In this document: positions 126-23,051 of the stretch, piece after piece
How the letters are laid out: the number at the start of each line of letters is the position of its first letter
Position numbering within the stretch: the stretch's first letter is position 1
Virus record (IMG/VR): IMGVR_UViG_3300000117_000215
Location: 1 to 23,051 of that record
Reading direction: 5' to 3' (one strand)
Source: a virus
DNA: 23,051 bases
Notes under the pieces: generated by a model
Seen by the model: the letters and a program-made list of their open reading frames with translations, nothing else
Databases searched by the model: none
What the model was told of the DNA's origin: nothing
Position numbers and translations under genes: made by a program

Positions 126-2312
126 TCATTCCGCTTGCTCGGTAGCCGCTCGAATTAGCCCGGTGAGCTTAGTATGCGATATGCCCTTGCCCCAAGTCTC
201 AGCCCATTTGCGCCGCAGTTGCGCGCCGCTCGGCGGCCGTGCTTCATCTCCGTGCTTTTTGCCGTTCTCTTCGGCTGTCGCGAGCATTACCAGGCGTAGC
301 TTTTCGATACTGATCAGCCGTTTAATTGCGGCCGTCTGCTCGCGCTTCTGTTGCTTTCGCTCCGGCGTCGCTGGCGTGGTTTGCTGGCTCTGTGTGGGTG
401 TCGCTGGGTTCTCGTTCTCGCCGGCCGCGAATGCACCTTGCAGCATCTGCGAAGAGTCAACGTGTACCGGGTATCGGAAAAACATCCGACGCGGCGCCGG
501 TGGCGCGAATTCTCGCAACGTCGCTTCTACTCGCCATCCGGTCGTTATCGCTGCGGCGTCTTGTGCTTTTGCCCTTGCGTCGGCGACATCGTGCGCAATG
601 GCGGCCGCGTTGCTGTGCGTCCATCGCATCAGCTCATTTGCGGGCATCTCCGGCACGGGTGCGCCGGTTTCGGCCAATGTCTCGCGCATTGCGGCCAGTT
701 CCCACGCCTCGCTAATCTCGTCGCGTCGTTCGTTGCCTATCATCAGCTCGATTAGGTCAATGATCGCGTCAGGATCACGCGCAAAAACACCGGAACCGCT
801 GGCGCGGTCGTGGCTTGCTTTTTGCCCTTGCGCGCCCTTGCTGTGATGATGGCAGTAAACAATCGCGGCGTTTAGTTCTGTGCTGATCATATCGAAAAGA
901 TTACAAAACTCGGCCATCTCCGACGCGCTGTTTTCGTCGCCCGTCAGCACCTTGTATATCGGGTCTATTATAATCAATTCAACGCCAGAATCGTGAACTC
1001 TTCGCACTAGCCTCGGCGCTAGTTCGCGAAGGCTCACCGCGCGACCTCTTAGATCCCAAATTGTGATACTTCTTTTTGGCAGAATTTGCAACTTTTGCGC
1101 GATCGTCCAAAAGCGGCGCCGACTGCTCTGCGGGTCTAGTTCCAGGTTGACATAAAGCACCTTTCGCGGCTTGCCTATGCGATGCCCTAGCCACTCGCCG
1201 CCGCATGATGCTGAAAGCGCGAGCTGTTGCAGGAGGAACGACTTGCCGGCCTTAGACGGGCCAGCGATCAGCAGCTTGTGACCTTCGCGCAACATCCCCT
1301 CGATTATTTCCGGCCTGACTGGCGGCTCGCCGTTGCCGATGTCGAGCGTTGCCATCGGCGGTAGGTCGTCGTCGCGGTCGATCATCCACGCGCGCCACTC
1401 AGACCAATTCGCGCGGCCTATATTGACTGCTTCCAACGCCTGCACCTTGTCTGATCGCATCACTCCCGGCAGCCGTGATAGCCGGCTAGGATTTTTGTTC
1501 TGCTTGTCGAGCGGTAAACCTTCGGCTTCGCATATCTCGTATAGCTTGGCGACGCGCTCGACATATTGCGCGCGGTCTTCTGCGTCTACTCTGACTATCG
1601 CGTGCAAAGATTTGTTGCCGCTATGCACGAGCGCGGTGATCGGTAGCTCTAGCTTTTGTAGGATCTCGCGTTGTTTGTCGATCGGCACGCTGTCGGATTC
1701 CACCAGGGCGTGCCGGTATGCGGTTACGTTCGCATCTTTAGCCCCGGCGCCGTCGAGCGGATTAAATCGAATAAACGCGCCCGCGTTGCCCGCTTGGCCG
1801 ATGATCGGCACGGTGTCGCCGGATTCGCACAACGTGATCAGCTCGTCGCGCTCCCGCCATTCGCCAGCGTCGGCCGGTGCCATGCGCCCGCCCTTCTCGA
1901 ACGTGCGTTGAACGTAGCCGACGAGTTCGCCTGGCTCGAACACTGCGCGCAGGTAGTCGGCTATCTGCTTGGCCGATTCTTCAAGCGTGATCATCTCCGG
2001 CGTCGGGTCGTCGGATAACCGTTGCTGGCTAGGTGGCAGTAGCGTAATGTTCTCCCAATCGAGCGCGCCGCCCTTTCGCTTTCGCGGTGCCGGCTTTGAT
2101 GACGGTCGCGGTGTCGTGCGATATGCCGAGGCAATCGTCCGGGTTATTTCGTGATCGGTCAGCCCATCGCGCCGGGCCTTGTCGCCTAGCACTTGTTGCG
2201 CTTTGCTCTCCGGCCACCCGTCATTGAGCGCGAATGCCGCGTGCCTGTACAGCTCCAGGTTGCGCTGGCCCTCGACGGGCGGCGATTGCAGATATCGGTC
2301 GATGGCGTTCAA
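126..2312 (-). CDS. Bifunctional primase / RepA-like hexameric helicase
   Basis: A replication protein of 728 aa. The middle-C-terminal part is a RecA-fold AAA_25 (RepA/DnaB-like) helicase: Walker A GPSKAGKSF at residues 351-359, Walker B LIIID at 446-450, and a conserved HHHSKG loop at 488-493. The N-terminal half (about 180-300) resembles archaeo-eukaryotic-type primase-polymerase domains of phages, with ESDS (205-208), HSGNKSLH (230-237) and a NPSRLSRLPGV block (274-284). It would prime and unwind phage DNA in the cytoplasm. The only usable start is TTG at 2312: an in-frame stop lies just upstream and the next ATG is deep inside the primase half. That TTG overlaps the TGA of a 17-codon ORF (TTGA), so initiation is probably by translational coupling. 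Residues 83-91 (ALDWENITL) echo the N-terminus of the SSB-like protein at 6574-6993. The last 100 residues are low-complexity and basic. The helicase assignment is firm, the primase one moderate. Confidence 0.85.
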   Translation of the reverse strand: MNAIDRYLQSPPVEGQRNLELYRHAAFALNDGWPESKAQQVLGDKARRDGLTDHEITRTIASAYRTTPRPSSKPAPRKRKGGALDWENITLLPPSQQRLSDDPTPEMITLEESAKQIADYLRAVFEPGELVGYVQRTFEKGGRMAPADAGEWRERDELITLCESGDTVPIIGQAGNAGAFIRFNPLDGAGAKDANVTAYRHALVESDSVPIDKQREILQKLELPITALVHSGNKSLHAIVRVDAEDRAQYVERVAKLYEICEAEGLPLDKQNKNPSRLSRLPGVMRSDKVQALEAVNIGRANWSEWRAWMIDRDDDLPPMATLDIGNGEPPVRPEIIEGMLREGHKLLIAGPSKAGKSFLLQQLALSASCGGEWLGHRIGKPRKVLYVNLELDPQSSRRRFWTIAQKLQILPKRSITIWDLRGRAVSLRELAPRLVRRVHDSGVELIIIDPIYKVLTGDENSASEMAEFCNLFDMISTELNAAIVYCHHHSKGAQGQKASHDRASGSGVFARDPDAIIDLIELMIGNERRDEISEAWELAAMRETLAETGAPVPEMPANELMRWTHSNAAAIAHDVADARAKAQDAAAITTGWRVEATLREFAPPAPRRMFFRYPVHVDSSQMLQGAFAAGENENPATPTQSQQTTPATPERKQQKREQTAAIKRLISIEKLRLVMLATAEENGKKHGDEARPPSGAQLRRKWAETWGKGISHTKLTGLIRAATEQAE

Positions 2313-2362
2313 AATGCGAACTCAATCTGATCGCGCTCTGGGATCTTTTTTGTGTTGCTCAT
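2309..2362 (-). CDS. 17-aa leader peptide coupled to the primase-helicase
   Basis: A minute ORF encoding MSNTKKIPERDQIEFAF. It has a good ribosome binding site (CAGGAAAA just before ATG), overlaps the stop of the PAPS-reductase-like gene by four bases (ATGA), and ends in a TGA that overlaps the TTG start of the primase-helicase. This start-stop chain suggests it delivers ribosomes to the weak TTG start. It could instead be the true N-terminus of the primase gene separated by a frameshift, but an in-frame fusion would require an indel. No function of its own is proposed. Confidence 0.4.
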   Translation of the reverse strand: MSNTKKIPERDQIEFAF

Positions 2363-3570
2363 TTTTCCTGCCTGTTTTTCTTAATTTGCAGATATCGCCC
2401 ATAGGCGTCTGACTTGGGCTGCGTCAATCCAAGCCCCTTGCACCACCAGTCATTGCGCAGCAGAACCTTACATAGACGGCGCCATGATGGTGCCCAATAC
2501 TTGTTCTCCAACTGCTTTGGGGCTTCATCTGGAATACCGCGCGAGTACCCCCTGTAACGCCATCGGCGCATCCAGTCTTGGAACTTTGGAGTGTAGTGGT
2601 CGCGAGTCAGCTTCGGCATGGTTGCCAAGAGCAGCTTGCAGAAGGATTCCCAGGTGTGCCCCTCTGGCTTGCTGATACGGTTATAGCCATTCACGTTGCC
2701 CGTCTCGTTAATGTATAGCGAGCCGCTATTTACCCCATTGACCCTGGCAACGACCCTGTACCATGTTTGGGGCTCCAGAATATGATAAAGCCACAGGCCG
2801 CGCCTTTGGTCGTCCCCATAGGGCTGGCACAGTCGCATTTGATGGATTGACATGCCGGCCAAATGCATAAGGTCATAGACCGCATTGTGTGGCAAATCTT
2901 GATGCACGGCATGGAATCGCCAAATGTCTTGAGTCTTCCAGTCGTACACTGGATATAGGTTGAAAAGATGGTCCGAAACCTTTGTGGTGAACCTAGCGAC
3001 CCCATGCATTTCCTTCGTCTCGCTGGCGATCGTTCGGAATCGATTCAGTGATTCATCAGCACGAATGCCGATGCAGCCGCATGTGTCAACCCCCTTCGCG
3101 TACCATTCGCCAAAGAGAACCATGAACTCTTCAAACTCCATTTCGTCTTGGAAGAAGTCGAAGTAATCCTCGCCAGAGATCACGCAGCTACGCTTCGGCA
3201 TGGGGCGAACCCATTGCTCCTCTGCATCGCGTTGCCAGCATACCCAGCGCGGTTCAAAGTTGCTTACCGCGTTGCGGAGAGACAGCGGTAGGCATACCCA
3301 GTAGGGTTCGATGATCTCCGCGTACATGTCCAGCATCTCTTCAATGTGGAAAATGGTGTTGGAGTATTGCGCCTCAAGGTCGATAATGAGGACGGCAAAC
3401 TTTCGCCCTCTCCGTATCGCTTCTTGGGCAACAAGGTGCAGCATTACGCTTGAGTCCTTGCCGCCTGAGAACGACACATAGACTTTTTTGAAGTGGTCGA
3501 ATGCATATTGAACGCGCTCAATGCCCGCGCAATAAGTGTCTTGGTTAGTGTATTGCTTGAGCTTGCTCAT
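2359..3570 (-). CDS. IbrA-like PAPS-reductase family protein (DUF3440 type)
   Basis: A 403-aa protein of the phosphoadenosine-phosphosulfate reductase/PP-loop ATP pyrophosphatase superfamily. The PP-loop SGGKDS is at residues 35-40, and the GIRADESLNR segment typical of this subgroup is at 168-177, preceded by CGC (164-166). The C-terminal half (about 240-370), rich in W, Y and R, matches the DUF3440-type extension of E. coli IbrA/YbdN. In this family the enzyme activity is unproven; IbrA acts with IbrB as a regulator in E. coli, and related enzymes activate sulfate or transfer sulfur to nucleic acids. The start ATG at 3570 shares one base with the TGA of the ParB-like gene (TGATG), so the two are co-translated. 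Codon choice looks more AT-rich than in flanking genes, suggesting transfer as a cassette. Family placement is strong; the phage function is unknown. Confidence 0.85.
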   Translation of the reverse strand: MSKLKQYTNQDTYCAGIERVQYAFDHFKKVYVSFSGGKDSSVMLHLVAQEAIRRGRKFAVLIIDLEAQYSNTIFHIEEMLDMYAEIIEPYWVCLPLSLRNAVSNFEPRWVCWQRDAEEQWVRPMPKRSCVISGEDYFDFFQDEMEFEEFMVLFGEWYAKGVDTCGCIGIRADESLNRFRTIASETKEMHGVARFTTKVSDHLFNLYPVYDWKTQDIWRFHAVHQDLPHNAVYDLMHLAGMSIHQMRLCQPYGDDQRRGLWLYHILEPQTWYRVVARVNGVNSGSLYINETGNVNGYNRISKPEGHTWESFCKLLLATMPKLTRDHYTPKFQDWMRRWRYRGYSRGIPDEAPKQLENKYWAPSWRRLCKVLLRNDWWCKGLGLTQPKSDAYGRYLQIKKNRQEK

Positions 3571-4718
3571 CAGTACATGTTCGCCTGTGTTTTGGATTCC
3601 ACCGTGTCCACATCAACCGGTGTGCGACCATTGGCCAATAGCCATTGGTTCAGATGCTTCATGGCTATGCGATCCGCCTCCTGTTGCTCGGACTCAGTGA
3701 GAAGATTATAGCCACCTCGGAAGCATGCGGGAATGCCATGCTCATAGGCGAGTGCTGCCTGGCCAAGCCAGGCAATGCGGTTCATGCTCTCGTTGGTCAG
3801 GTAGTGTTCGCAGGAGTGGGGCCATTTATTCAAGACTTTATCGAGGACACCGTCGAAGAGTGCAGCATTAGATAGCAGCTCCCTGTATGCCTCTTCGCAC
3901 TCTTGGCCCGTCATTCCGCTCGGTGCGGATGTCCCGTAAAAGTTTGCACCGAAGCATTCCCATTTATCCCAAGTGTGGTAGATGCGACCGCCCTCTTCGT
4001 GTTCAACGGGTTCGCCTTCATCGTCGAACTGAAAGTCACCTTCATCGAAAATGCCGATGTCCCACGCGGCAGAAAAGTCTTGATTGTCAAAAAGGTCTGA
4101 CAGTCCCGACACTTGGCACAGTCGCAATATCTCATCCTCATCCATGCCGAGTTCTTTTGCAACTCGCCTATCTGTCCAGTTGCGCTTCTTGAGTTCCAGG
4201 ACAATATCCGACATTGAATCGACGCGATGCTTGCCGCGTGCGCGGTTGTGCCGGATGGTTGAGGCGATGCGGTCATTTCTTTCTACGCAGTCATCATTGA
4301 TGGTCACGACTGGCAAGAAGCCTTGAACGCGATTTCTTACGTCGTCCAACTCCTTGCAAACCCTAGTGCGATGGAATCCATCAATCACCTCGCGGCCATC
4401 TTGGGCGTTCCATGTTACCACTGGCTGCGTATATCCATCGTGATTAATGGAGTGTCGCAGCAATTCCATTTCAGGCGGCGCTACGCTGTTCGGGTTGTAG
4501 TCATTGGCCGCAACGTCATCGACGGCAACCCATTGCACCAAATCAACGGGTTCAGCATGGAACGGACTCGCTGCATGCAGGATGCGGCGCACGTCATTCA
4601 GGGCGGCAACCTTTTCGCCAATGCACATGCCATCGAGGGCACGCGCAATGTCTTGGGCGAGTCCCTGCGGTGTCTGCGCGTTTCCTGAAAAATCAAATAA
4701 ACTCATCTGTTCGCTCAT
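3570..4718 (-). CDS. IbrB-like ParB/Srx-fold protein
   Basis: A 382-aa protein when started at ATG 4718, which overlaps the stop of the 19-codon ORF (ATGA) and has GGAAG upstream; an ATG nine codons earlier at 4745 is possible. Residues about 61-160 are a ParB N-terminal/sulfiredoxin-like domain: QWVAVDDVAANDYNPN, then the signature VIDGFHR at 111-117 and RHNRARGKH at 156-164. Residues about 168-205 form a ParB-like helix-turn-helix (KKRNWTDRRVAKELGM). The C-terminal half is unassigned. ParB/Srx proteins bind CTP or ATP and some are nucleases; E. coli IbrB/YbdM is always paired with IbrA, exactly as here. The expected role is DNA binding or regulation together with the downstream PAPS-reductase homologue. 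Domain calls are firm; biological role is inference. Confidence 0.8.
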   Translation of the reverse strand: MSEQMSLFDFSGNAQTPQGLAQDIARALDGMCIGEKVAALNDVRRILHAASPFHAEPVDLVQWVAVDDVAANDYNPNSVAPPEMELLRHSINHDGYTQPVVTWNAQDGREVIDGFHRTRVCKELDDVRNRVQGFLPVVTINDDCVERNDRIASTIRHNRARGKHRVDSMSDIVLELKKRNWTDRRVAKELGMDEDEILRLCQVSGLSDLFDNQDFSAAWDIGIFDEGDFQFDDEGEPVEHEEGGRIYHTWDKWECFGANFYGTSAPSGMTGQECEEAYRELLSNAALFDGVLDKVLNKWPHSCEHYLTNESMNRIAWLGQAALAYEHGIPACFRGGYNLLTESEQQEADRIAMKHLNQWLLANGRTPVDVDTVESKTQANMY

Positions 4719-4774
4719 TTCGCTGCTTCCACTTTGAACGGGCATTCACGCGGCCCGCCGTCGTACTGTTTCAT
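4715..4774 (-). CDS. 19-aa small ORF coupled to the IbrB-like gene
   Basis: It encodes MKQYDGGPRECPFKVEAAK from ATG 4774, preceded by a clear GGGAG ribosome binding site at about 4781-4785, and its TGA overlaps the ATG at 4718. It looks like a translational leader for the IbrB-like gene. The CPF tripeptide is reminiscent of the start of Lar-type small phage proteins, so it might be the stub of an older gene interrupted when the cassette arrived. That idea rests on very few residues. Confidence 0.4.
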   Translation of the reverse strand: MKQYDGGPRECPFKVEAAK

Positions 4775-4812: not shown

Positions 4813-5016
4813 TTATCGGCTTGTGCTGGTGTTCGGCTCGCGGTATATCATCCGCAGGATGGGCGCGTATCCTTCGACCGGGATCGATTCGAGGCGGAAT
4901 ATATGCCCGCAACTGTGCGCCAGTTCTCGCAGAATTTGCGCGTCTTCGGTGTCGCCCATGCAGTCGAATTTGCCGAGGCGCATAGTGGCCAGCATGATTT
5001 GTGTTCGTCGTGTCAT
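4813..5016 (-). CDS. Small hypothetical phage protein (67 aa)
   Basis: Started at ATG 5016, which overlaps the TGA of the SF2 helicase gene (ATGA); a longer reading to 5109 would lie inside that helicase and is rejected. The 67-aa product begins MTRRTQIMLATMRLGKFDC and contains a DTEDAQILRELAHSCGHIF segment with spaced Cys and His residues. There is no membrane segment. I do not recognise the family. Its place in the replication operon, directly after the helicase, suggests an early cytoplasmic role, and about 40 bases then separate it from the 19-codon leader of the IbrB-like gene. Confidence 0.6.
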   Translation of the reverse strand: MTRRTQIMLATMRLGKFDCMGDTEDAQILRELAHSCGHIFRLESIPVEGYAPILRMIYREPNTSTSR

Positions 5017-6572
5017 TGCATCGCTCCGAGTTGTCGCATGATCGGCGTTACGCGCCAGTTGTTGCGCGCGAGTTGTGAGATCATAGCGGTCGCGCGGTCG
5101 AATGTCCAAAGACCGACGCGCTCGAATCCGCGTTGCTCCAGCAACCGCACTTGCTTCGGTGTCGCGAGTCCATCTTCGCGGCGCCGCTTGAGCGTGTCCA
5201 TGATCGCGGCCGCTTGTCCCTTCGTTTCTACGACTGCGTGATCGATGCCGGCACGCTCTAGCGCGTTGCGCTGTGGCTCAGTCGCGGGGTCATGCTCCCA
5301 TCCGAAAGCCGGCACATAGTCGGCTAAGTCGGTGTCGCATATGCTGATCGCATATTGCAGCGGGTCCACCAGTTTTTTCTTCCGATGCCGCATTTCCGCG
5401 AGCTTGCGCGCCAGTTTTTCTTCGCGTTCTGCGGTCGCGTCGCGTTCTGCTTCTTCGGCACCTTCGAGAAGGTCGTACTCTGAGCCGGGATCGCGGCTTG
5501 CCATTCGATCAGCCATGTCATTTTCAGCAACTAGCGAACCGGGCCGGCATAGCTGGTGGTTCGCGGTATGCCACAAGAAATCAATCAGCAGTAGGTGATC
5601 CTTGCCAGGATGCAATCGCATCCCGCGCCCGACTATCTGCGCATATAGCGCGCGTATTTTTGTCGGTCGCAGACACACGATGCAATCGACGCTCGGCTCG
5701 TCCCATCCTTCGGTTAGCAGCATAGAATTACATAGCACATGATATTTGCCCGTAGAAAAGTCTTGCAGGATCTCGCGACGGTCAGGGCTTTTGCCGTTTA
5801 TTTCAGCGACTCGCGCGCCGCGCGCTGAAAGCATAGCGGCGAGGCGTTGTGATGTCGCGATTAGCGGCAAAAATACGACGGTTTTCCGCTGGCGGCAATG
5901 AATGTCCATCGCGTCGGCAATCTGTTCCAAGTAGGGGTCGAGAGCGTTGCCGGCTTCGCGTGCGGAAAAGTCGCCAGCTTGTGTGCGCACCTTGCTCAAA
6001 TCAATTTCGAGCGGCAGTGTTAGCGCCTTGACCGGCGACAGGTGCCCTTCCTTGATCGCTTTGCCGAGACGGTACTGATACGCAATAGAATCGTAGACCT
6101 TTTGCAATCCTTTTTTGTCTCCGCGATCCGGTGTTGCCGTCACGCCCAAAAGTCGCGCGGTGCTGAATTGGCCGATGATCCTCATGTAGCTATCGGCCAG
6201 CGTGTGATGAGCCTCATCGATGATCAGCACGTCGAAATTATCGGCTGGCCATGATGCCAAGCGATCCCCGGTAAGCGTCTGCACGCTCGCCACTACGACG
6301 CTCGCGCCCCGGTCGGCTTTGTGCTTCGCCATTTCCTTACTGGCACAGATCCCCGTCGCGCGGTGTAGCTTGTCGATTGCTTGGTCGATCAGCTCTTCGC
6401 GGTGCGCGAGTATCAGCACTCGCTTGCCCGCTTCGGTTAGTCTTTTCGCAAGGTGCGAAAATACAATGGTTTTCCCTGTTCCCGTCGGAAGCACGAGCAG
6501 CGTACGTCTCACCGTACGCCACTCGCGCAACACTGCGCGCAGGGCTTCTAGTTGGTATGCGCGCAGTTCCAT
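5013..6572 (-). CDS. DEAD/DEAH-box SF2 helicase
   Basis: A 519-aa ATP-dependent helicase from ATG 6572 (one base after the TAA of the upstream gene; the longer in-frame extension to 6770 lies within that gene). Motifs in order: Q-like ELRAYQ at 2-7, Walker A PTGTGKT at 29-35, motif Ia AHREELIDQA, DEAH at 119-122, motif III TATPDRG at 145-151, motif V LTEGWDEP at 286-293, and motif VI QIVGRGMR at 312-319. A charged coiled segment (about 365-400) and a C-terminal ATPKQ/EPQRNALERAG-type repeat seen in phage helicases complete it. It probably unwinds branched or recombination intermediates during phage replication, working with the neighbouring Sak4-like ATPase and SSB-like protein. Length and motif set are normal for phage DEAD/DEAH helicases. 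Confidence 0.92.
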   Translation of the reverse strand: MELRAYQLEALRAVLREWRTVRRTLLVLPTGTGKTIVFSHLAKRLTEAGKRVLILAHREELIDQAIDKLHRATGICASKEMAKHKADRGASVVVASVQTLTGDRLASWPADNFDVLIIDEAHHTLADSYMRIIGQFSTARLLGVTATPDRGDKKGLQKVYDSIAYQYRLGKAIKEGHLSPVKALTLPLEIDLSKVRTQAGDFSAREAGNALDPYLEQIADAMDIHCRQRKTVVFLPLIATSQRLAAMLSARGARVAEINGKSPDRREILQDFSTGKYHVLCNSMLLTEGWDEPSVDCIVCLRPTKIRALYAQIVGRGMRLHPGKDHLLLIDFLWHTANHQLCRPGSLVAENDMADRMASRDPGSEYDLLEGAEEAERDATAEREEKLARKLAEMRHRKKKLVDPLQYAISICDTDLADYVPAFGWEHDPATEPQRNALERAGIDHAVVETKGQAAAIMDTLKRRREDGLATPKQVRLLEQRGFERVGLWTFDRATAMISQLARNNWRVTPIMRQLGAMQ

Positions 6573-6573
6573 A

Positions 6574-6993
6574 TTAAAAGACCGATAGCGCGTCAGCTTG
6601 CGCGTCTTGCGGTGCGGGTAGCCACCGCGCCACGGTGTTGTATTTGTCGCCCTCATACTCGCGAGTTTTGATCTTACAGCGCCCGGTTTTGCCTTCGATA
6701 TCCCAGCTCGGCGCATCGTAAAGGCCGATTGAATTGAAAAAGGCGCTGATGATGCCGAGGCACGAATCATCGAGAAAAAGACGCTCTTTCAGCCCCGTGT
6801 TCCCGTGTTCAGATTCGATGCGGATGCTGATTTCAGCCTTTGGGCAGTTGCCGATCTTGCCGCCCGGCTTTGCGGTATGCATTCCGCGTTCCAGCCCGAT
6901 GACGGTGAATTCGTACTCGCCAGGCGGTAGCAGCGTGTGTTGCGGTTCTGACGCTTTTTGCAGGTTGATGTTTTCCCAATCGAGGGCAGCCAT
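6574..6993 (-). CDS. DUF669-like / single-strand-binding-type phage protein
   Basis: A 139-aa protein with an excellent ribosome binding site (AAGGAG) before ATG 6993. The PPGEYEFTVIG start of a beta-strand domain at about residues 23-33, the AEISIRIE strand, and the late GRCKIKTREYEGDKYNTVARW block fit the OB-like DUF669 proteins encoded beside recombination ATPases in many phages. The likely job is binding ssDNA or assisting annealing with the Sak4-like protein encoded just upstream (gap one base). The N-terminal ALDWENINL (3-11) is nearly repeated in the primase-helicase. The family assignment is by pattern and context and is moderate. Confidence 0.6.
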   Translation of the reverse strand: MAALDWENINLQKASEPQHTLLPPGEYEFTVIGLERGMHTAKPGGKIGNCPKAEISIRIESEHGNTGLKERLFLDDSCLGIISAFFNSIGLYDAPSWDIEGKTGRCKIKTREYEGDKYNTVARWLPAPQDAQADALSVF

Positions 6994-9124: not shown

Positions 9125-9223
9125 TCAGTCGCTGAACTCGCTTATAAAAGCGATTATAAAACTGAGGACGATAGGCGCGAGCATCAGCGCGCCTCCGATG
9201 TTGTACGCGGCTTCGGTGATCAT
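9125..9223 (-). CDS. Tiny membrane peptide (32 aa)
   Basis: An ORF of 32 codons whose ATG at 9223 overlaps the TGA of the pentapeptide-repeat gene (ATGA). The product begins MITEAAYNIGGALMLAPIV and has one hydrophobic helix (about residues 10-28), ending in SEFSD. Too short to classify. The precise overlap and the membrane character make chance less likely. Possible roles are those of other tiny phage membrane proteins, such as inhibition of a host membrane complex or a lysis accessory. Confidence 0.5.
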   Translation of the reverse strand: MITEAAYNIGGALMLAPIVLSFIIAFISEFSD

Positions 9224-9690
9224 TTTTGCCCCTTTTTTTGCTCGGTGGCGATCCATCCTGGCGCAATAATTGCGCCGGTCAAATTGGCGTCGGTGAGTTT
9301 AGCTCCGGCGAGATTAGCCCCGGTCAGATCAGAGTGCGAAAGATCAGCGCCGGTGAGATCTGCGAGATATAAATTTGCACCGATCAGCTTCGCGATAAGC
9401 AAGTCAGCGCCTTCGAGACACGCACCGGTAAGATTTGCCCCAGTCAAATTGGCGCGGGCAAGATCAGCGCGGTAAAGATCCGCACCGATGAGGTCGCAGC
9501 TTGCCAAATTTGCACCGTGTAAAACGGCCGTTGCGAGATTGGCGCCGGTAAGATCTGCGCCGGTGAGTCTCGATCCCCATAGCTCCGAACCCGCAAGATC
9601 GGCCTCTGCTAGATCGGCTCCGTGAAGATTGGCTGGACGTGCTGCGAGATTCGCGGCCGCTATTTCGTCCATCGCCGTTTCTGTTTCCAT
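9220..9690 (-). CDS. Pentapeptide-repeat protein
   Basis: A 156-aa protein built almost entirely (about residues 14-145) of A(D/N)LxX pentapeptides, e.g. GADLTGANLA and GANLYLADLT, which fold as a right-handed quadrilateral beta-helix. Start ATG 9690 has a strong GGGAG site. It is the first gene after the gap that separates it from the lipase, so it may lead the early operon. Some pentapeptide proteins (Qnr, MfpA) mimic DNA and bind gyrase; others have no known role, and nothing here identifies a target. The fold is certain, the function unknown. Confidence 0.9.
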   Translation of the reverse strand: METETAMDEIAAANLAARPANLHGADLAEADLAGSELWGSRLTGADLTGANLATAVLHGANLASCDLIGADLYRADLARANLTGANLTGACLEGADLLIAKLIGANLYLADLTGADLSHSDLTGANLAGAKLTDANLTGAIIAPGWIATEQKKGQK

Positions 9691-9771: not shown

Positions 9772-10494
9772 TTATTGCAGCGCGGCCGCGTCGGCTAGGT
9801 ATCCGGCCATCTTGTGCGCGGCGATGCCTACTCGGTCGCATGGCCATGCCATCGACTCGCCCGCGTGAACATAGCGCGGCCAAGGCGTGAGCCGGGTGAT
9901 CGCGCCCGGTAGCCAGGGCACTGGGTCGCCGCGATGATACGCGCGCGCGTGCGTACCATCTAACGCGCGCAACGCGCGCGAGAAGCGACGACAACCGGCA
10001 CGCGGTTGCCCGAAAGTAGCAGTGCTGATTCGCCGGTCGCCGACGCCGTAGCGCGTGGGCATCATCACGGCCAATATCTGCGCTATCATGCCGCCGAGGC
10101 TGTGACCGGTAAACGTGATTGAATCCCAAGGATACGCGCGCAGGTGAGTTGCGATAGTGCCAGCCGCTGAAAGCGCCGAATAGTAGCCGCCGGCGTGCGC
10201 CCGTACTTCATCGCCATCGGCCGCGCGGAATTTGCGCCGGGTTGCCCGCAAATCGGTATAGACATCGCGCATACTTGTAGTGCCCCGCACAGCTACCCAT
10301 GTGCGCCCGCTCTCACGCAATATCGCAAATTCGGTATCCGTCGCGGCATCATCATGCCAGGCGACGAAATCTAGCCCCAAGGCCCGCGCGCCGCGCGCTA
10401 CTGCGTCGCGATCGTGCGCGATGCACTCTGCTTCGCCATGCGCTACCGCTGCCGGATAGACGAGCGTCGAGAGTTGCGCCGCGCGAAATATCAT
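9772..10494 (-). CDS. Class 3 lipase / alpha-beta hydrolase
   Basis: A 240-aa serine hydrolase from ATG 10494 (ATGA overlap with the upstream gene; the longer frame to 10566 lies inside that gene). The family's features are all present: VAVRGTTSMRD at 67-77 (oxyanion region), nucleophile elbow GHSLGG at 130-135 with Ser132, TFGQPRAG at 160-167, the Asp in GDPVPWLP at 190, and a C-terminal His at 227 in AHKMAGYL (His210 is an alternative). It should hydrolyse acyl ester bonds of lipids. No signal peptide is evident. It follows an XhlA-like membrane protein and fibre-type genes, so it may weaken membranes at lysis or act at the tail tip during entry. Catalytic competence is likely; the substrate is unknown. 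Confidence 0.85.
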   Translation of the reverse strand: MIFRAAQLSTLVYPAAVAHGEAECIAHDRDAVARGARALGLDFVAWHDDAATDTEFAILRESGRTWVAVRGTTSMRDVYTDLRATRRKFRAADGDEVRAHAGGYYSALSAAGTIATHLRAYPWDSITFTGHSLGGMIAQILAVMMPTRYGVGDRRISTATFGQPRAGCRRFSRALRALDGTHARAYHRGDPVPWLPGAITRLTPWPRYVHAGESMAWPCDRVGIAAHKMAGYLADAAALQ

Positions 10495-10694
10495 TGCAGC
10501 ACGCGCAGAACGTGCGGAATCCAAGACAAGGCCGACAAAGCCATCACGATGCCGACCGCAAGCCAAACGCGCTTTTCCAGGTCGCGCACGCGGTGTTCGT
10601 GGTCGCGCAAGTCACGTTCTATCGCTTCCAGGCTTCTCGCAATTTGGAGCAGACGCTCTCGCACCATTCCTCTAAATTCGTCATCCGGCGGCAT
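10491..10694 (-). CDS. XhlA-like coiled-coil membrane protein
   Basis: A 67-aa protein: a charged coiled coil (about residues 8-42, heptad-like SLEAIERDLRDHEHRVRDLE) then one membrane helix (44-60) and a short tail. This layout matches XhlA/haemolysin-type proteins that accompany phage holins. ATG 10694 has AAGGTG about seven bases upstream. The stop overlaps the lipase start (ATGA), tying the two together. A holin-accessory role is the best guess; an assembly chaperone for the lipase is an alternative. Confidence 0.6.
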   Translation of the reverse strand: MPPDDEFRGMVRERLLQIARSLEAIERDLRDHEHRVRDLEKRVWLAVGIVMALSALSWIPHVLRVLQ

Positions 10695-14050: not shown

Positions 14051-14937
14051 CGAATAATCGTGTCAAAGTTCAGATTTATCCAAGTGGCGGCGGCATTGCT
14101 GCGAATGATCATTGCATCATCTGCCGCATCGAGCGTAATTGTCGTGGTGTTTTTGATCGTGCCGCTGATCGTGACCGAGTTTGCGCCGCTGTCGTTTTTA
14201 ATGTGCGCAATCTCGCCAGCTTGGCCGGTCGGCAGCGCAACGGTAACGTCGGCGGCTGTCGTGTCGCACAAGTAATGCGCAGTCCCCGCGTGCGAGTCAA
14301 TCGCGCTTGCGGTGGCCCATGTCGCAGCACCGGCAACAACGCTAGTGGCTTTGTAAAGTTGCGAGCCGGTCGAATGCCAGATGTAGTCGCCGACTGCGTA
14401 CCCTGCCGAGCTGTCATCGCTGACGCCTGGCGCGGTCGTCTTTGCCACTACCTGGTAAATCGAGCCCGCAACGTCGGCTGAACTCGGTGTACTGGTCGCG
14501 GCGCCAAATGTGCCGAATATCGAGACATATTGTACGAGCGTGCGTTGCTCGTTCGTGCCGCTGATCACCGCGTATAGTATGCAATCTTTATTACCCAATC
14601 CGTCAGGCACGGCGCCGGAATCCACGGAGAAGTTAACGGTATCATATTCAGCCGCTTCGCTCTGCGCTACTGTGCCGGCCGCGTCTATCGTGTACGGGTC
14701 TGATTCGCTGTCGCGCTCTTTGATGTATAGTTTCGCTGTCGCGCTTGCGCCGAAATCGTGCTTTACGTCGGCGTCGTAGTCATCATATACGAGAAGCGAA
14801 ATCGCGAACGAATCGCCGGCCACTTGGTCCGGTACGATTGTTTCTTTGCCTGCGATGACGGGCACGCGCGACGATGCCGAATCCATGAAAAAAGAGCGGC
14901 TAAGATCGCAAACGAGCTGATAGTTGTTTTTGGCCAT
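14047..14937 (-). CDS. BppU-like baseplate/tail protein
   Basis: A 296-aa protein, first gene after the AT-rich gap, ATG 14937 with AGGCGG upstream. The N-terminal about 145 residues (VYDDYDADVKHDFGASATAK, KLYIKERDSESDPYTI, VPDGLGNKDCILYAVI) recall the N-terminal domain of BppU baseplate proteins. The middle, GYAVGDYIWHSTGSQLYKAT to TW (about 179-207), looks like a carbohydrate-binding-like module. The C-terminus (222-296) repeats the beta fold of the next gene. It likely anchors receptor-binding parts to the tail. The BppU call is tentative. Confidence 0.5.
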   Translation of the reverse strand: MAKNNYQLVCDLSRSFFMDSASSRVPVIAGKETIVPDQVAGDSFAISLLVYDDYDADVKHDFGASATAKLYIKERDSESDPYTIDAAGTVAQSEAAEYDTVNFSVDSGAVPDGLGNKDCILYAVISGTNEQRTLVQYVSIFGTFGAATSTPSSADVAGSIYQVVAKTTAPGVSDDSSAGYAVGDYIWHSTGSQLYKATSVVAGAATWATASAIDSHAGTAHYLCDTTAADVTVALPTGQAGEIAHIKNDSGANSVTISGTIKNTTTITLDAADDAMIIRSNAAATWINLNFDTIIR

Positions 14938-15079
14938 TTTATCCGCCTATTTCTTGTTCGGGAATATAGCGCCCGCGCGTTGTAAAGTTAATATATTTGC
15001 AAGCTTTTTCATGGTGGATCTAAGGTAGCAGGTTTTTTGGACGGTTGGGCTTATTTAGTGGTGGCGGTAGACACTTTTT
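14938..15079 (-). other. AT-rich gap between tail genes
   Basis: A 142-bp stretch with no large gene and visibly lower GC than its neighbours, the only break of this size among the structural genes. It contains AT runs (e.g. around 14985-15000 and 15055-15080) that could hold a promoter, but I see no well-spaced -35/-10 pair and no convincing terminator hairpin. It coincides with one boundary of the foreign-looking segment at 15080-17150 and holds one 21-codon ORF. Confidence 0.5.
14947..15012 (-). CDS. Possible 21-aa leader ORF
   Basis: An ORF of 21 codons from ATG 15012, product starting MKKLANILTLQRAGAIFP and ending NKK. Its TAG overlaps the AGGCGG used by the downstream BppU-like gene, the same packing seen for other small ORFs here. 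It has no strong ribosome binding site of its own. It may be a leader peptide or chance. Confidence 0.25.
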   Translation of the reverse strand: MKKLANILTLQRAGAIFPNKK

Positions 15080-16201
15080 TCAGGGGAGGAACTGGAATCC
15101 GTTGGTCGAGTCTTGGTCGTACTTGACGGCACATGCGTAGTCGGTCATGTGCCAGCCCCTGTAGGTGTTGGCTCCCTCTGTGGGTTCGTCTAGCCAGGGG
15201 GAGGGCATGGTGAGCGACCCGAATAGGGGAGAAAAGACGATGGCGGGGGAGAGGCTGGGAATGACGGGGTTGGGCGGTCCTGGTGCGGCCTTGGTGATAG
15301 TGGTGGTGCCGATGCTATGCCAGACGTCGATAGCTGAGAGGTTGTATTTGTCTGGGACTGCGAGTCCTTCGACGAGTCCGTAGAAATCGACGTCGGCTGC
15401 GTATCTGTGCATAATGGTGCAACTGACTGAGTTTCGGTTGCTGTACATTTGGGCGTTGTAGTCAGGCCCGGCGACGTTGTAGCTGCTGCGAGTGGACTGA
15501 CGGGGGGCACCGGCAGAGTTGGTTTGAGTGGTGAGGCTGGATGCGGTCCACGCGCTCTCTGCTGCGGCTTTTGCATCTGCCCATGTGCTGCGATCGACTT
15601 GCCCGAATTTTTTGCCGCCGACGGTAGCACCACCGGAGAAGAATTTTCCCTGGAAGCTGTAGTGAACACGCATCCATCGCAGTTGGTTTATAATGTCATA
15701 CTGCTGGCGTAGCCAGGCGGCGGTGAATTGCTGGCTGGATAGCCCGGTTGATCCCAGTCCATAGCGTGCGTCATGCTCGAAGCGGATTCTGGTTTGTCCC
15801 AGATGCGTCATAAGATCTGGCTCGGTCCATACTTTTGGTGCCGGGGTGCCGGCTGCGGAGTGGTGCCAGTTAGCCTCGTCGTGATGGTTGCAGAATAGGG
15901 GAATGATCTCGTCGATGTAGTATTGTATCCCCCAAATGACGTTACGGGCAGTGCCGCCTGACAGGTAGTCGACCAGATCGAGTGCTTGGTTTGCGGTGCC
16001 AATGGACCAATTTTCTTCCGGCGGATATTTGCTGCCGCCAAGTCCCCAATCGCTGAGATGCGGAAGTGAACCGATGTCCTCATGGATGCAGGACATGCGC
16101 TCGAGAAGGGCGAGGCGGATGGCTTGGACGTATTTGCGATGGGTGATGCGACCGGAGAGGTCGTCCCAGTGCATGTCTTCGTCTGTCCAGTTGGTAATCA
16201 T
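15080..16201 (-). CDS. Unrecognised distal-tail-region protein (373 aa)
   Basis: A 373-aa protein from ATG 16201 (ATGA overlap with the upstream gene). It starts MITNWTDEDMHWDDLSGRIT and is rich in W, Y and H, with an aromatic helical N-terminal half and a Ser/Thr/Pro-rich C-terminus (about 300-373). There is no catalytic motif or signal peptide I can name. Codon and base composition differ from the flanking genes: few of the GCGC-rich codons and more G-rich plus-strand runs. Position between the tape measure and the fibre genes suggests a tail-tip or receptor-binding protein that arrived with part of the preceding gene. Function unknown. Confidence 0.65.
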   Translation of the reverse strand: MITNWTDEDMHWDDLSGRITHRKYVQAIRLALLERMSCIHEDIGSLPHLSDWGLGGSKYPPEENWSIGTANQALDLVDYLSGGTARNVIWGIQYYIDEIIPLFCNHHDEANWHHSAAGTPAPKVWTEPDLMTHLGQTRIRFEHDARYGLGSTGLSSQQFTAAWLRQQYDIINQLRWMRVHYSFQGKFFSGGATVGGKKFGQVDRSTWADAKAAAESAWTASSLTTQTNSAGAPRQSTRSSYNVAGPDYNAQMYSNRNSVSCTIMHRYAADVDFYGLVEGLAVPDKYNLSAIDVWHSIGTTTITKAAPGPPNPVIPSLSPAIVFSPLFGSLTMPSPWLDEPTEGANTYRGWHMTDYACAVKYDQDSTNGFQFLP

Positions 16202-17325
16202 TGGAGGGTAAAGGGTATGATCTCGACGATGCCGGTGACGAGGCGGCGCCCAAAGAAGAGTCTACCTGGTGCGAGGATCTCATCATCATGGAGTTGGATG
16301 ACGTGGGCGGTGATGGTGCCGGTGTCGGGACTGTTTACGGTGGCGGGAGTGGTGGTGGCATCGTAGTAGTAGCTGCCGCGCCAGATGTGTGCTTCTGCGG
16401 TTTTGGCACCAGCCTCGTGGTCGATGATCTCGAGGACGACGAGGTCGGGGGAGCGGGCGTACTGGAGACGTTCGGTGTATGGTTTGAGGTAGGTGAGATA
16501 ACCGGATGAGTCGACGGATATGCGGCAGACACGGAGGGGGGTGACTAGCCAGTTTATGGAGTCGTGGAAGTCGAGCTCGATTCCGCCTCCACGCTTGATG
16601 CCCCAGCAGACGATGCGCTCGCCAGATGGGGCGGGTATGGCGAGACTCGCGGTGAGTCCTCCGTCTCCGGTGTCGTCGAGGTTGTAGACGTTGAGGGTGC
16701 CGGTGTCGTCGTCGTACTCGCAGAAGCTTCGAGTGGCGGGCGGCTCGGGGCGAACGAGGACGTGAGGCTTGGTGATGTTGTAGGGGATGGTGTAAGTGCC
16801 GTCGCCCTTGAGGGTGACTTTGGCGAGGCGGCGGAAGGTGCCGGTGCCTCCACGGTTGCTGGCGTCGGCGCTGTCGGTGGCTAGGCTATTGTGATCGACG
16901 AATTTGAGTGAGTAGGTGACGTTGGCGTGTTCGTGGACGTTGGGGGAGTATGTGGGCTCGTAGCCGATTTCGACGTCGCCATTTCCTGCGGAGAAGGTCC
17001 AGGCGACGGTTTCAAATGTGCCTTGTGCGGTGGGGTCTGTTTTTTCTTCTGCGGGGAGTCCGGCGTTGTCATATGCCCACCGCATGTCGGTGACGGTGAT
17101 GGTGAACTCGCTGGAGGTGGAGTCGTAGGTGACGGAGATGGGTTGGCGCTCAGGCCCGCGCCGATGCTGCAAGTGAATACCGGCGCCGGTGCTAATCAGT
17201 TCGTGATCGGCGTCGGTCGTCATCGTAGTACGCCGGCTCAGTTCCTTCAGCAGCGCGTCGTCGCTCCATCCGCCTAGATTGCGCGCCAAGTCGCCGGAAA
17301 AATCGTCTTGCGGTGCGGTGTTCAT
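16198..17325 (-). CDS. Unrecognised tail-region protein, apparently mosaic (375 aa)
   Basis: Started at MNTAPQDDFSGDL (ATG 17325, ATGA overlap with the upstream stop). The first 60 residues, to about HLQHRRGPERQP, share base composition with the rest of the phage. From about 17150 onward the DNA changes to the other style seen in the downstream gene. The body is beta-rich (e.g. FTITVTDMRWAYDN, GDGTYTIPYNITKPHVLV, GDGGLTASLAIPAPSG), as in baseplate or tail-tip proteins. The junction suggests that a phage N-terminal anchor was joined to a foreign distal part. No named family is recognised. Confidence 0.65.
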   Translation of the reverse strand: MNTAPQDDFSGDLARNLGGWSDDALLKELSRRTTMTTDADHELISTGAGIHLQHRRGPERQPISVTYDSTSSEFTITVTDMRWAYDNAGLPAEEKTDPTAQGTFETVAWTFSAGNGDVEIGYEPTYSPNVHEHANVTYSLKFVDHNSLATDSADASNRGGTGTFRRLAKVTLKGDGTYTIPYNITKPHVLVRPEPPATRSFCEYDDDTGTLNVYNLDDTGDGGLTASLAIPAPSGERIVCWGIKRGGGIELDFHDSINWLVTPLRVCRISVDSSGYLTYLKPYTERLQYARSPDLVVLEIIDHEAGAKTAEAHIWRGSYYYDATTTPATVNSPDTGTITAHVIQLHDDEILAPGRLFFGRRLVTGIVEIIPFTLQ

Positions 17326-17807
17326 TCGTCGGCCCAATCTGAGGTCTGCGTGAGGCTCACGGTGATCGTGCTGGTGCCGTCTCCGTGATCCTGGCAGCTC
17401 CAGTTATCGACGCGCAAACCCTTGTTGTAGAACGGCGTAGGCACTGGAGGATCGCCGCCATCATCTTCGGGCAGCGTCGGATCGATAGTGTCGTAGGTTT
17501 CGATGGTAAACTCAGTCGATGGCGGTGTTGTGCTGCCGAGATGCACGCCGATTCCACTCGATAGGGATGCAAAGAAGTTTTGATCGCGCATGAACTGATA
17601 TTGCGCTTGCAGCGTTAGCCCGTCAGATCGTAGCCGCGCGCTCATTACCGCGTGTATCGTGCGCATCTGTTGATAGGCTGCATCTTTGCCGGCCTGCAAT
17701 CGTCGCTGCACTCTGATGCCGCAACTACGGCGAATCCATTTGGCATTATCCAAGCTGCGAAAGTTCGCGTAATCGATCGGCTTTTCAGGATGTATCGGGA
17801 CGGCCAT
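17322..17807 (-). CDS. Small distal tail protein downstream of tape measure
   Basis: A 161-aa protein started at MAVPIHPEKPIDYANF (ATG 17807, TAATG overlap with the tape measure stop); the longer frame to 17957 lies inside the tape measure gene. It contains a basic segment (RRSCGIRVQRRLQAGKDAAYQQMRTI) and ends in an acidic DWADE. No named domain. Immediate downstream position after the tape measure is where distal tail proteins are usually encoded, so that is the best guess. Confidence 0.6.
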   Translation of the reverse strand: MAVPIHPEKPIDYANFRSLDNAKWIRRSCGIRVQRRLQAGKDAAYQQMRTIHAVMSARLRSDGLTLQAQYQFMRDQNFFASLSSGIGVHLGSTTPPSTEFTIETYDTIDPTLPEDDGGDPPVPTPFYNKGLRVDNWSCQDHGDGTSTITVSLTQTSDWADE

Positions 17808-22457: not shown

Positions 22458-23051
22458 TTACGCCTGAACGAGGTGCTTGATGGGATTAGTGCCAGCATCG
22501 GCGAGCTCGCCATCGGTGCGAAGAATCGCAACCCAGGCGATCTGATCGTTATCAGCGAAACGCTCGTTCAACCGAACGAGGCGAACTGCGCCAACGTCGC
22601 GGATGTAGTAGCGGGAGAAATCGCCGAAGAGGACGGTCTTGTTGCCGGTGGCAAGCGCGGCCATGTCGTCGTTGGTGATGACCGGAGCGCCGAAGAGCGT
22701 GTCAGGCAGGCCCATGCTCAGGCCGGGCTGCCACAGGTAGTTACTGTCGCCATCCTTGAGCTTTCGGACGTATTTGGCAGTTGAATCCGCCAGCATCCAA
22801 GTACCGTTGCGGCGGTATGCACGGCCGACGCTGTGGTAAAGGTCGATGAGCTCATCGCTGGTGATCGCGGCGACGCCGGCAGCGGTGACACCGGCCGCAG
22901 AAGCGGTAACGACACCATTGACGGTCGAAGAGCCCGAACCGGTCGTGTAAAGCGCCGAGGCGTTGCGGGCGATTCGCTCACCGAGAAGTCGGCCGAGAAG
23001 GCTGCCGAGATCGAATGCGCTATCCTGCAACAGCTCAAACGGGATCTTTAC
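22458..23051 (-). CDS. HK97-type major capsid protein, C-terminal part
   Basis: The gene runs off the right edge; 197 aa are visible and the start is outside. The signature VKIPFELLQDSAFDL opens the visible part, followed by LGERIARNASALYTTGSG, the GVTAAGVAAITSDELIDLYH segment, MGLPDTLFGAPVITND and the final IAWVAILRTDGELAD. These are the P-domain and A-domain segments of HK97-fold phage capsids. It forms the icosahedral shell. The two hairpins follow its stop, probably to set capsid mRNA levels. Confidence 0.92.
   Translation of the reverse strand, partial: VKIPFELLQDSAFDLGSLLGRLLGERIARNASALYTTGSGSSTVNGVVTASAAGVTAAGVAAITSDELIDLYHSVGRAYRRNGTWMLADSTAKYVRKLKDGDSNYLWQPGLSMGLPDTLFGAPVITNDDMAALATGNKTVLFGDFSRYYIRDVGAVRLVRLNERFADNDQIAWVAILRTDGELADAGTNPIKHLVQA

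Follow-up and report, generated by a model that had tools for sequence, protein, structure and literature searches.

A two-gene cassette in the replication module

We analyzed a window of 23,051 nt, which is part of a 25,579-b virus record in IMG/VR. Its early/replication module lies on the minus strand and runs in the order HTH gene, 179-aa ORF, Sak4-like annealing protein, 139-aa ORF, SF2 helicase, gene B, gene A, and primase-helicase. The features considered in this study, with the basis of each assignment in parentheses, are listed below.

126..2312 (-), primase-helicase (RepA-like), downstream edge of the slot holding the pair (PF13481 1e-31, PHROG_2597 2e-192)
2359..3570 (-), A, PP-loop PAPS-reductase-like protein with DUF3440, 403 aa, IbrA/YbdN family (PF01507, PF11922, PHROG_2302, YbdN identity)
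2506..2859 (-), DUF3440 part of A, aa 238-355 (PF11922 match)
3451..3468 (-), PP-loop SGGKDS of A, aa 35-40 (conservation in 208 relatives)
3570..4718 (-), B, ParB/Srx protein fused to the Bc domain, 382 aa (PHROG_2159, YbdM identity)
3573..4001 (-), Bc domain of B, aa 240-382, all-helical (AlphaFold model, neighborhood counts)
4014..4088 (-), acidic, disordered linker between ParB core and Bc, aa 211-235 (pLDDT <50)
4062..4550 (-), ParB/Srx core of B, aa 57-219, IbrB class (tblastn, Foldseek)
4368..4388 (-), VIDGFHR motif of B, aa 111-117 (direct reading)
4813..5109 (-), doubtful small ORF between helicase and B, 98 aa, TTG start (ORF only)
5013..6590 (-), SF2 (ResIII-type) helicase, upstream edge of the slot (PF04851 3e-35, PHROG_16 1e-100)

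Genes A and B are adjacent and co-oriented, and their junction (...TAC TGATG AGC) is a 1-nt stop/start overlap. An alternative upstream ATG of B at position 4745 would give a protein of 391 aa, and a Pfam scan of the small ORF returned no match. An earlier sequence-only reading of this DNA had described the pair at these positions, between the SF2 helicase and primase-helicase genes, and joined by a TGATG overlap, all of which we could reproduce. It had also pointed out that this DNA is less GC-rich than its neighbors. This is correct (0.521 for A and 0.532 for B versus 0.543-0.635 for other genes), but GC3 of A (0.644) lies inside the range of the neighbors, so the dip mostly reflects amino-acid composition and is a weak sign of recent import; the argument for recent import from GC content was therefore dropped.

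Protein A retains ATP-activation residues and lacks an invariant cysteine

Protein A matched PF01507 (PAPS_reduct, 2e-10) and PF11922 (DUF3440, 3e-33), both above cut-off, as well as PHROG_2302 (4e-81). It shares 42.5% identity with Escherichia coli K-12 YbdN over 395 aa and 44% with annotated phage IbrA, while the corresponding values for B are 47% with E. coli K-12 YbdM over 207 aa and 49% with phage IbrB. The IbrA/IbrB-like identity first proposed from the letters of the window is thereby confirmed. PDB sequence searches gave no match for either A or B. The AlphaFold model of A (pLDDT 79) found its best Foldseek matches in CysH, CysD, and FAD synthase, and other neighbors include NAD/NMN synthetase, TtuA, NcsA, and TilS. 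These fold neighbors form a superfamily that adenylates or transfers many different groups.

The sequence SFSGGKDS is present at aa 33-40 of A. Alignment of 208 A proteins revealed that S35, G37-S40, D64/E66, G168/R170/E173/S174/R177, and D210-W211/D215 are essentially invariant, and the motifs SxGKDS, DxE, and GxRxxES..R are kept in approximately 100% of them. Across the same 208 proteins, none of the cysteines is invariant; the best kept are C377 (93%, in the tail), C367 (77%), C248 (76%), C93 (74%), and C111 (65%). The catalytic motif of CysH, ECGLH, occurs in 0/208 and CxxC in only 4/208. Because the ATP-activation motifs are kept and no cysteine is invariant, residue conservation implies that A should activate something with ATP, without a conserved site for protein-bound sulfur or an Fe-S cluster.

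Protein B combines an IbrB-class ParB core with an additional domain

Protein B matched PHROG_2159 (3e-67) over aa 31-221, and the Pfam ParB_N model gave only 18 bits, which is under its cut-off. Foldseek analysis of the ParB core identified Noc/KorB/ParB (2e-6) and sulfiredoxin (TMt 0.70). B carries the DGFHR and RHNRARGxH motifs of the IbrB family. DGFHR stands where sulfiredoxin has its catalytic cysteine (GCHR) and also replaces the GERR CTP-binding motif of partition ParB, both of which are missing in B, and ParA was not detected among the Pfam-scanned window genes.

Beyond the ParB core and the disordered acidic linker, B contains a third, separate C-terminal domain (Bc, 3573-4001) that the sequence-only reading had not included. 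This addition of roughly 140 aa makes B longer than its relatives. In the AlphaFold model of B (pLDDT 82.8, pTM 0.50), the ParB core and Bc are each confident, whereas their relative placement is not. Foldseek found no PDB match for the Bc fold, and stand-alone Bc copies had no Pfam or PHROG match. The distance between Bc and A is at most 3 kb in 100/113 viral loci and in 3/80 bacterial loci (p = 7e-36); the 113 viral loci were retrieved by similarity to the window, and the former proportion thus describes window-like phages. In 46 viral loci Bc is fused to B, as in the window. It is also found as its own gene in Microcystis phage Mwe-JY13, Pseudoalteromonas phage XCL1123, Pseudomonas phage Amjad_SA, Mycobacterium phages Nebkiss and Gaia, and many IMG/VR phages. 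In the whole phage collection, Bc was found in only 6 records at the search sensitivity used. We propose that Bc is a third component of the cassette.

Pairing, distribution, and selection

A tblastn search over 50,697 phage records identified A in 210 and B, by its ParB core, in 221 records from nearly the same genera. A has a nearby B in 108/113 viral loci, with the five remaining loci at contig ends, and in all 80 bacterial loci. The co-occurrence of the pair in related phages, whose absence would have counted against the earlier reading, is thus conserved. Gene order varies (A-B or B-Bc-A), which means that the unit is conserved and the layout is not. The E. coli K-12 relatives, YbdN and YbdM, are chromosomal and lie outside phages. 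Both genes are under strong purifying selection, with dN/dS among IMG/VR relatives of about 0.03-0.11 for A and 0.03-0.16 for B. The mirror-tree correlation between A and B was r = 0.71, a measure that cannot separate linkage from co-evolution and was set aside. Streptococcus thermophilus phage CHPC1246 does not contain IbrAB, and its flanks are 97% identical to those of CHPC1230; the pair therefore behaves as an exchangeable cassette.

Besides B and Bc, no fixed neighbor was found across the loci. Helicases near the pair are frequent but not universal: ResIII and DnaB types each occur in 13 viral loci. In 16/80 bacterial loci, the gene immediately before A encodes an SNF2-like helicase. An SNF2-like helicase of 390-400 aa also lies beside the pair or one gene off in phages of unrelated hosts (L046:4145-5356, L052:3199-4398, L054:3833-5002, L055:3836-5005, and L043:8153-9349), and it is a possible fourth partner.

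Several distant phage loci (L031-L036 and L038) have an ectoine-synthase-like cupin gene between A and B, and a stand-alone DUF3440 tail of about 85 aa. An apparent A-B fusion in one of them (L036) was rejected, as it is merely the DUF3440 tail joined to ParB. In addition, Fusobacterium phage phiFN37 (L043:10745-12030) has two ParB genes a few kb apart, one with a PAPS-reductase-like gene and the other beside a queuine tRNA-ribosyltransferase (TGT) gene.

Genomic slots shared with DNA-modification genes

Homologs of the window helicase (55% identity) and primase (approximately 40-47%) lie side by side in many phages; the primase homologs were located by alignment scans, a single-sequence scan having given none. 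The gap between the two genes is below 100 bp in 82/126 distinct viral loci, and neither A nor B was found between or in any of these helicase-primase loci (0/126). The slot is empty (15 bp) in Javan199 and holds a C5-methylase fragment in Javan355. An unbiased Pfam scan with a length-matched control showed that at least 8 of 51 slot genes of ≥100 aa encode DNA methyltransferases (PF00145, 4; N6_N4, 3; D12, 1), compared with two methyltransferases seen among 146 length-matched non-slot genes when the top 25 listed families were considered. The corresponding Fisher p-value is 4e-4, or 0.003 if two more control methyltransferases are hidden below the listed families, and non-independence among the phages makes both values optimistic. 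The idea also preceded the counting of methylases. A previous estimate of this enrichment (p = 1.5e-6) was discarded as biased, its seeds having been drawn from the slot itself. Because unrelated genes are found there too (Abi_alpha, YopX, DUF1642, and collagen-binding), the location of the pair is suggestive of DNA modification rather than proof of it. At one locus (L252:6276-7610), the slot is filled by a protein of 444 aa that contains a canonical ParB_N domain.

The second comparison concerns the slot directly upstream of terminase in mycobacteriophages of the Bclasvirinae. At this position, ParB-DpdA-QueC-QueD-QueE-FolE is present in TA17A and Funsized, and ParB-TGT in Nigel. Rosebush, which belongs to the genus of TA17A, has dPreQ0 at 28% of its G (PMC6884629). 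In Akoma, the same slot contains ParB (gp1), two small genes (gp2 and gp3), a short A (gp4), an IbrB-class ParB (gp5), and then terminase. The mycobacteriophages Athena and Gadjet also have the pair; their relative UncleHowie does not, and its terminase is gene 2. The two Akoma ParB proteins showed no crossover between profiles: gp1 scored 186 bits with the DpdB-slot ParB profile and -1.4 with the IbrB profile, while gp5 scored 122 bits with the IbrB profile and 0.5 with the DpdB-slot profile. DGFHR or DGYHR is likewise present in IbrB-class proteins and absent from the DpdB-slot class. Since gp1 and gp5 belong to distinct ParB classes, the simplest reading of these sequences is that the first ParB was retained and the modification enzyme was probably exchanged. 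Akoma gp4 does not have DUF3440 and is only about 25% identical to A of the window, so this slot argument carries to the window by family and not by close orthology. The short form adjoins terminase in several phages.

Proposed function and alternative explanations

On balance we favor, with moderate confidence, the interpretation that the cassette carries out phage DNA modification by ATP-activated chemistry, most likely on the phage's own DNA, with the involvement of sulfur unproven. A would be the chemical engine, whose PP-loop uses ATP to activate its target by adenylation, this target being a base or phosphate oxygen or else some attached group; a nucleophile would then displace the group activated by A. 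B would serve as an NTP-dependent ParB/Srx partner coupling A to DNA, and Bc as a phage-specific accessory domain with a role in docking the complex or directing it to its target. The resulting mark would hide phage DNA from host restriction or other sequence-sensing defenses.

ParB-superfamily proteins accompany several modification enzymes: ParB-like proteins lie beside DpdA (PMC6392294), the ParB-superfamily protein DndB occurs with DndCDE (PMC11662687), and ParBc proteins are found beside CmoX/CmoY (PMC12783734). Such companions are a recurring theme. Counting against modification, the cassette contains no dedicated sulfur-donor or precursor-synthesis gene, the chromosomal ybdNM of E. coli K-12 is, to our knowledge, tied to no DNA mark, and IbrAB is reported to activate genes. 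The nucleic-acid modification suggested from the sequence alone gains support from the two slot comparisons, while its sulfur version is weakened by the cysteine survey; host gene control and anti-defense, suggested at the same time, are possible. We also put forward, tentatively and with some doubt, a more specific scheme, namely a three-part hypermodification system (A, IbrB-class ParB, and Bc) that would add a new group to phage DNA by sulfur-independent ATP activation, with bacterial IbrAB/YbdNM acting as an epigenetic switch.

Sulfur as the added group is possible, but we do not favor it. Here A would be a DndC-like sulfurtransferase producing a phosphorothioate or thio-base in phage DNA, B would be DndB-like, and sulfur would come from host IscS. 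A belongs to the PAPS_reduct family and has weak partial matches to DndC (3e-8), DndB is in the ParB superfamily, host IscS can substitute for DndA (PMC11662687), and CysH, CysD, TtuA, and NcsA are among the fold matches. DndC, however, requires cysteines for its 4Fe-4S cluster (PMC11662687), whereas the 208 relatives of A have no invariant cysteine and almost no CxxC; DndD, DndE, and a desulfurase are missing from the cassette, and FAD synthase, NAD synthetase, and TilS, which are equally among the fold matches, do not move sulfur. Overall, we consider the DndC-like scheme unlikely.

An action on RNA is less probable still. The pair may modify host or phage tRNA or rRNA, for example to sustain translation during infection, and many PP-loop enzymes do act on tRNA, including TilS, TtuA, and NcsA among the fold matches; moreover, the chromosomal copies ybdNM exist outside phages. 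The slots common to DNA methylases and DpdA cassettes point instead to DNA, and the adjacency of the short form to terminase also speaks against RNA. A role as a transcription regulator appears about equally improbable; here B would be the DNA-binding part and A the sensor of a nucleotide or sulfur metabolite, and the phage would use the pair to control its host or lysogeny. IbrAB is described as an activator of eib genes (Sandt 2002, as cited in PMC6008420), ybdNM is repressed by CitR (PMC9068703), and the fold of B resembles the regulators Noc and KorB. On the other hand, the ATP-activation residues of A, which a passive partner would not need, are all invariant, the slots favor modification enzymes, and the reported gene activation by IbrAB could itself follow from a DNA mark. 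Finally, a role in assimilatory sulfate reduction as an auxiliary metabolic gene, which the family name and annotation habit in phage papers imply (PMC10434257, PMC8879888), can practically be dismissed, because the CysH cysteine motif ECGLH is missing in 208/208 and an obligatory ParB partner would make no sense for this pathway.

Relationship to known systems

The closest described relatives are E. coli IbrA/IbrB and YbdN/YbdM, which represent the same two families with conserved adjacency and 42-49% identity. The window pair differs from them in its reversed order (B then A), its position inside a phage replication module, and the extra Bc, which is near A in so few bacterial loci. Microcystis phage Mwe-JY13 has a ParB-Bc-A cassette in the same order, with 61% (A) and 56% (B) identity to the window; in this phage, however, Bc is not fused to ParB and the cassette lies beside RecT/YqaJ recombination genes.

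Three modification systems share parts of this design. The DpdA/DpdB cassettes of Bclasvirinae likewise combine a modifying enzyme with a ParB-superfamily partner, and a divergent A-B pair occupies their slot in Akoma. In contrast to them, the window pair has no TGT or Que enzymes, A is of the PP-loop ATP-pyrophosphatase type, and the ParB classes are distinct; DpdA (TGT-like) was not found among the Pfam-scanned window genes. Dnd phosphorothioation (DndC with DndB) also joins a PAPS_reduct-family enzyme and a ParB/Srx-superfamily protein. Unlike Dnd, A of the window does not have invariant Fe-S cysteines and the cassette does not include DndA, DndD, or DndE; neither a PADLOC scan of five window genes nor the Pfam scans detected DndA/IscS, DndD, or DndE. 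Cytosine hypermodification by CmoX/CmoY involves an ATP-dependent, AMP-forming enzyme that acts on phage DNA and is often near a ParBc protein. CmoY, an ATP-dependent asparagine-synthetase homolog, ligates glycine to modified cytosine in phage DNA (PMC12783734). It thus differs in type from A, and neither CmoA nor CmoX was seen in the window.

Pairs of the IbrA/IbrB type occur widely in both phages and bacteria, usually under the label of sulfate-assimilation genes or partition proteins. The pair had been called undescribed in the sequence-only reading. This holds for its function, as no phage function of such a pair was described in the literature searched, but not for the pair itself, which already carries an annotation in about 200 phage records and appears by name in several papers. 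A 2024 Thermus phage paper stated that phage PAPS-reductase homologs merit further investigation (PMC11437467). As far as we have checked, the Bc component, the family-wide loss of sulfur-chemistry cysteines, and the two slot exchanges are new. If the slot evidence is right, the family would be an unrecognized class of DNA-modifying enzymes, exchanged by phages for methylases and deazaguanine machinery, and one such pair would be present in E. coli.

Other features of the window

In the region 14750-17400, GC skew is strongly positive (0.2-0.33) despite the minus-strand genes, and the proteins encoded there had no match in Pfam. A capsid gene is split into two ORFs by N bases at approximately 23030-23051 (L376, ~1031-1060), which is probably an assembly gap. 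The phage early region encodes a pentapeptide-repeat protein (9220-9690; PF00805, 4e-36), and proteins of this type can mimic DNA. A class 3 lipase-like protein, which is an unusual phage cargo, is encoded at 9772-10566 (PF01764, 1e-20).
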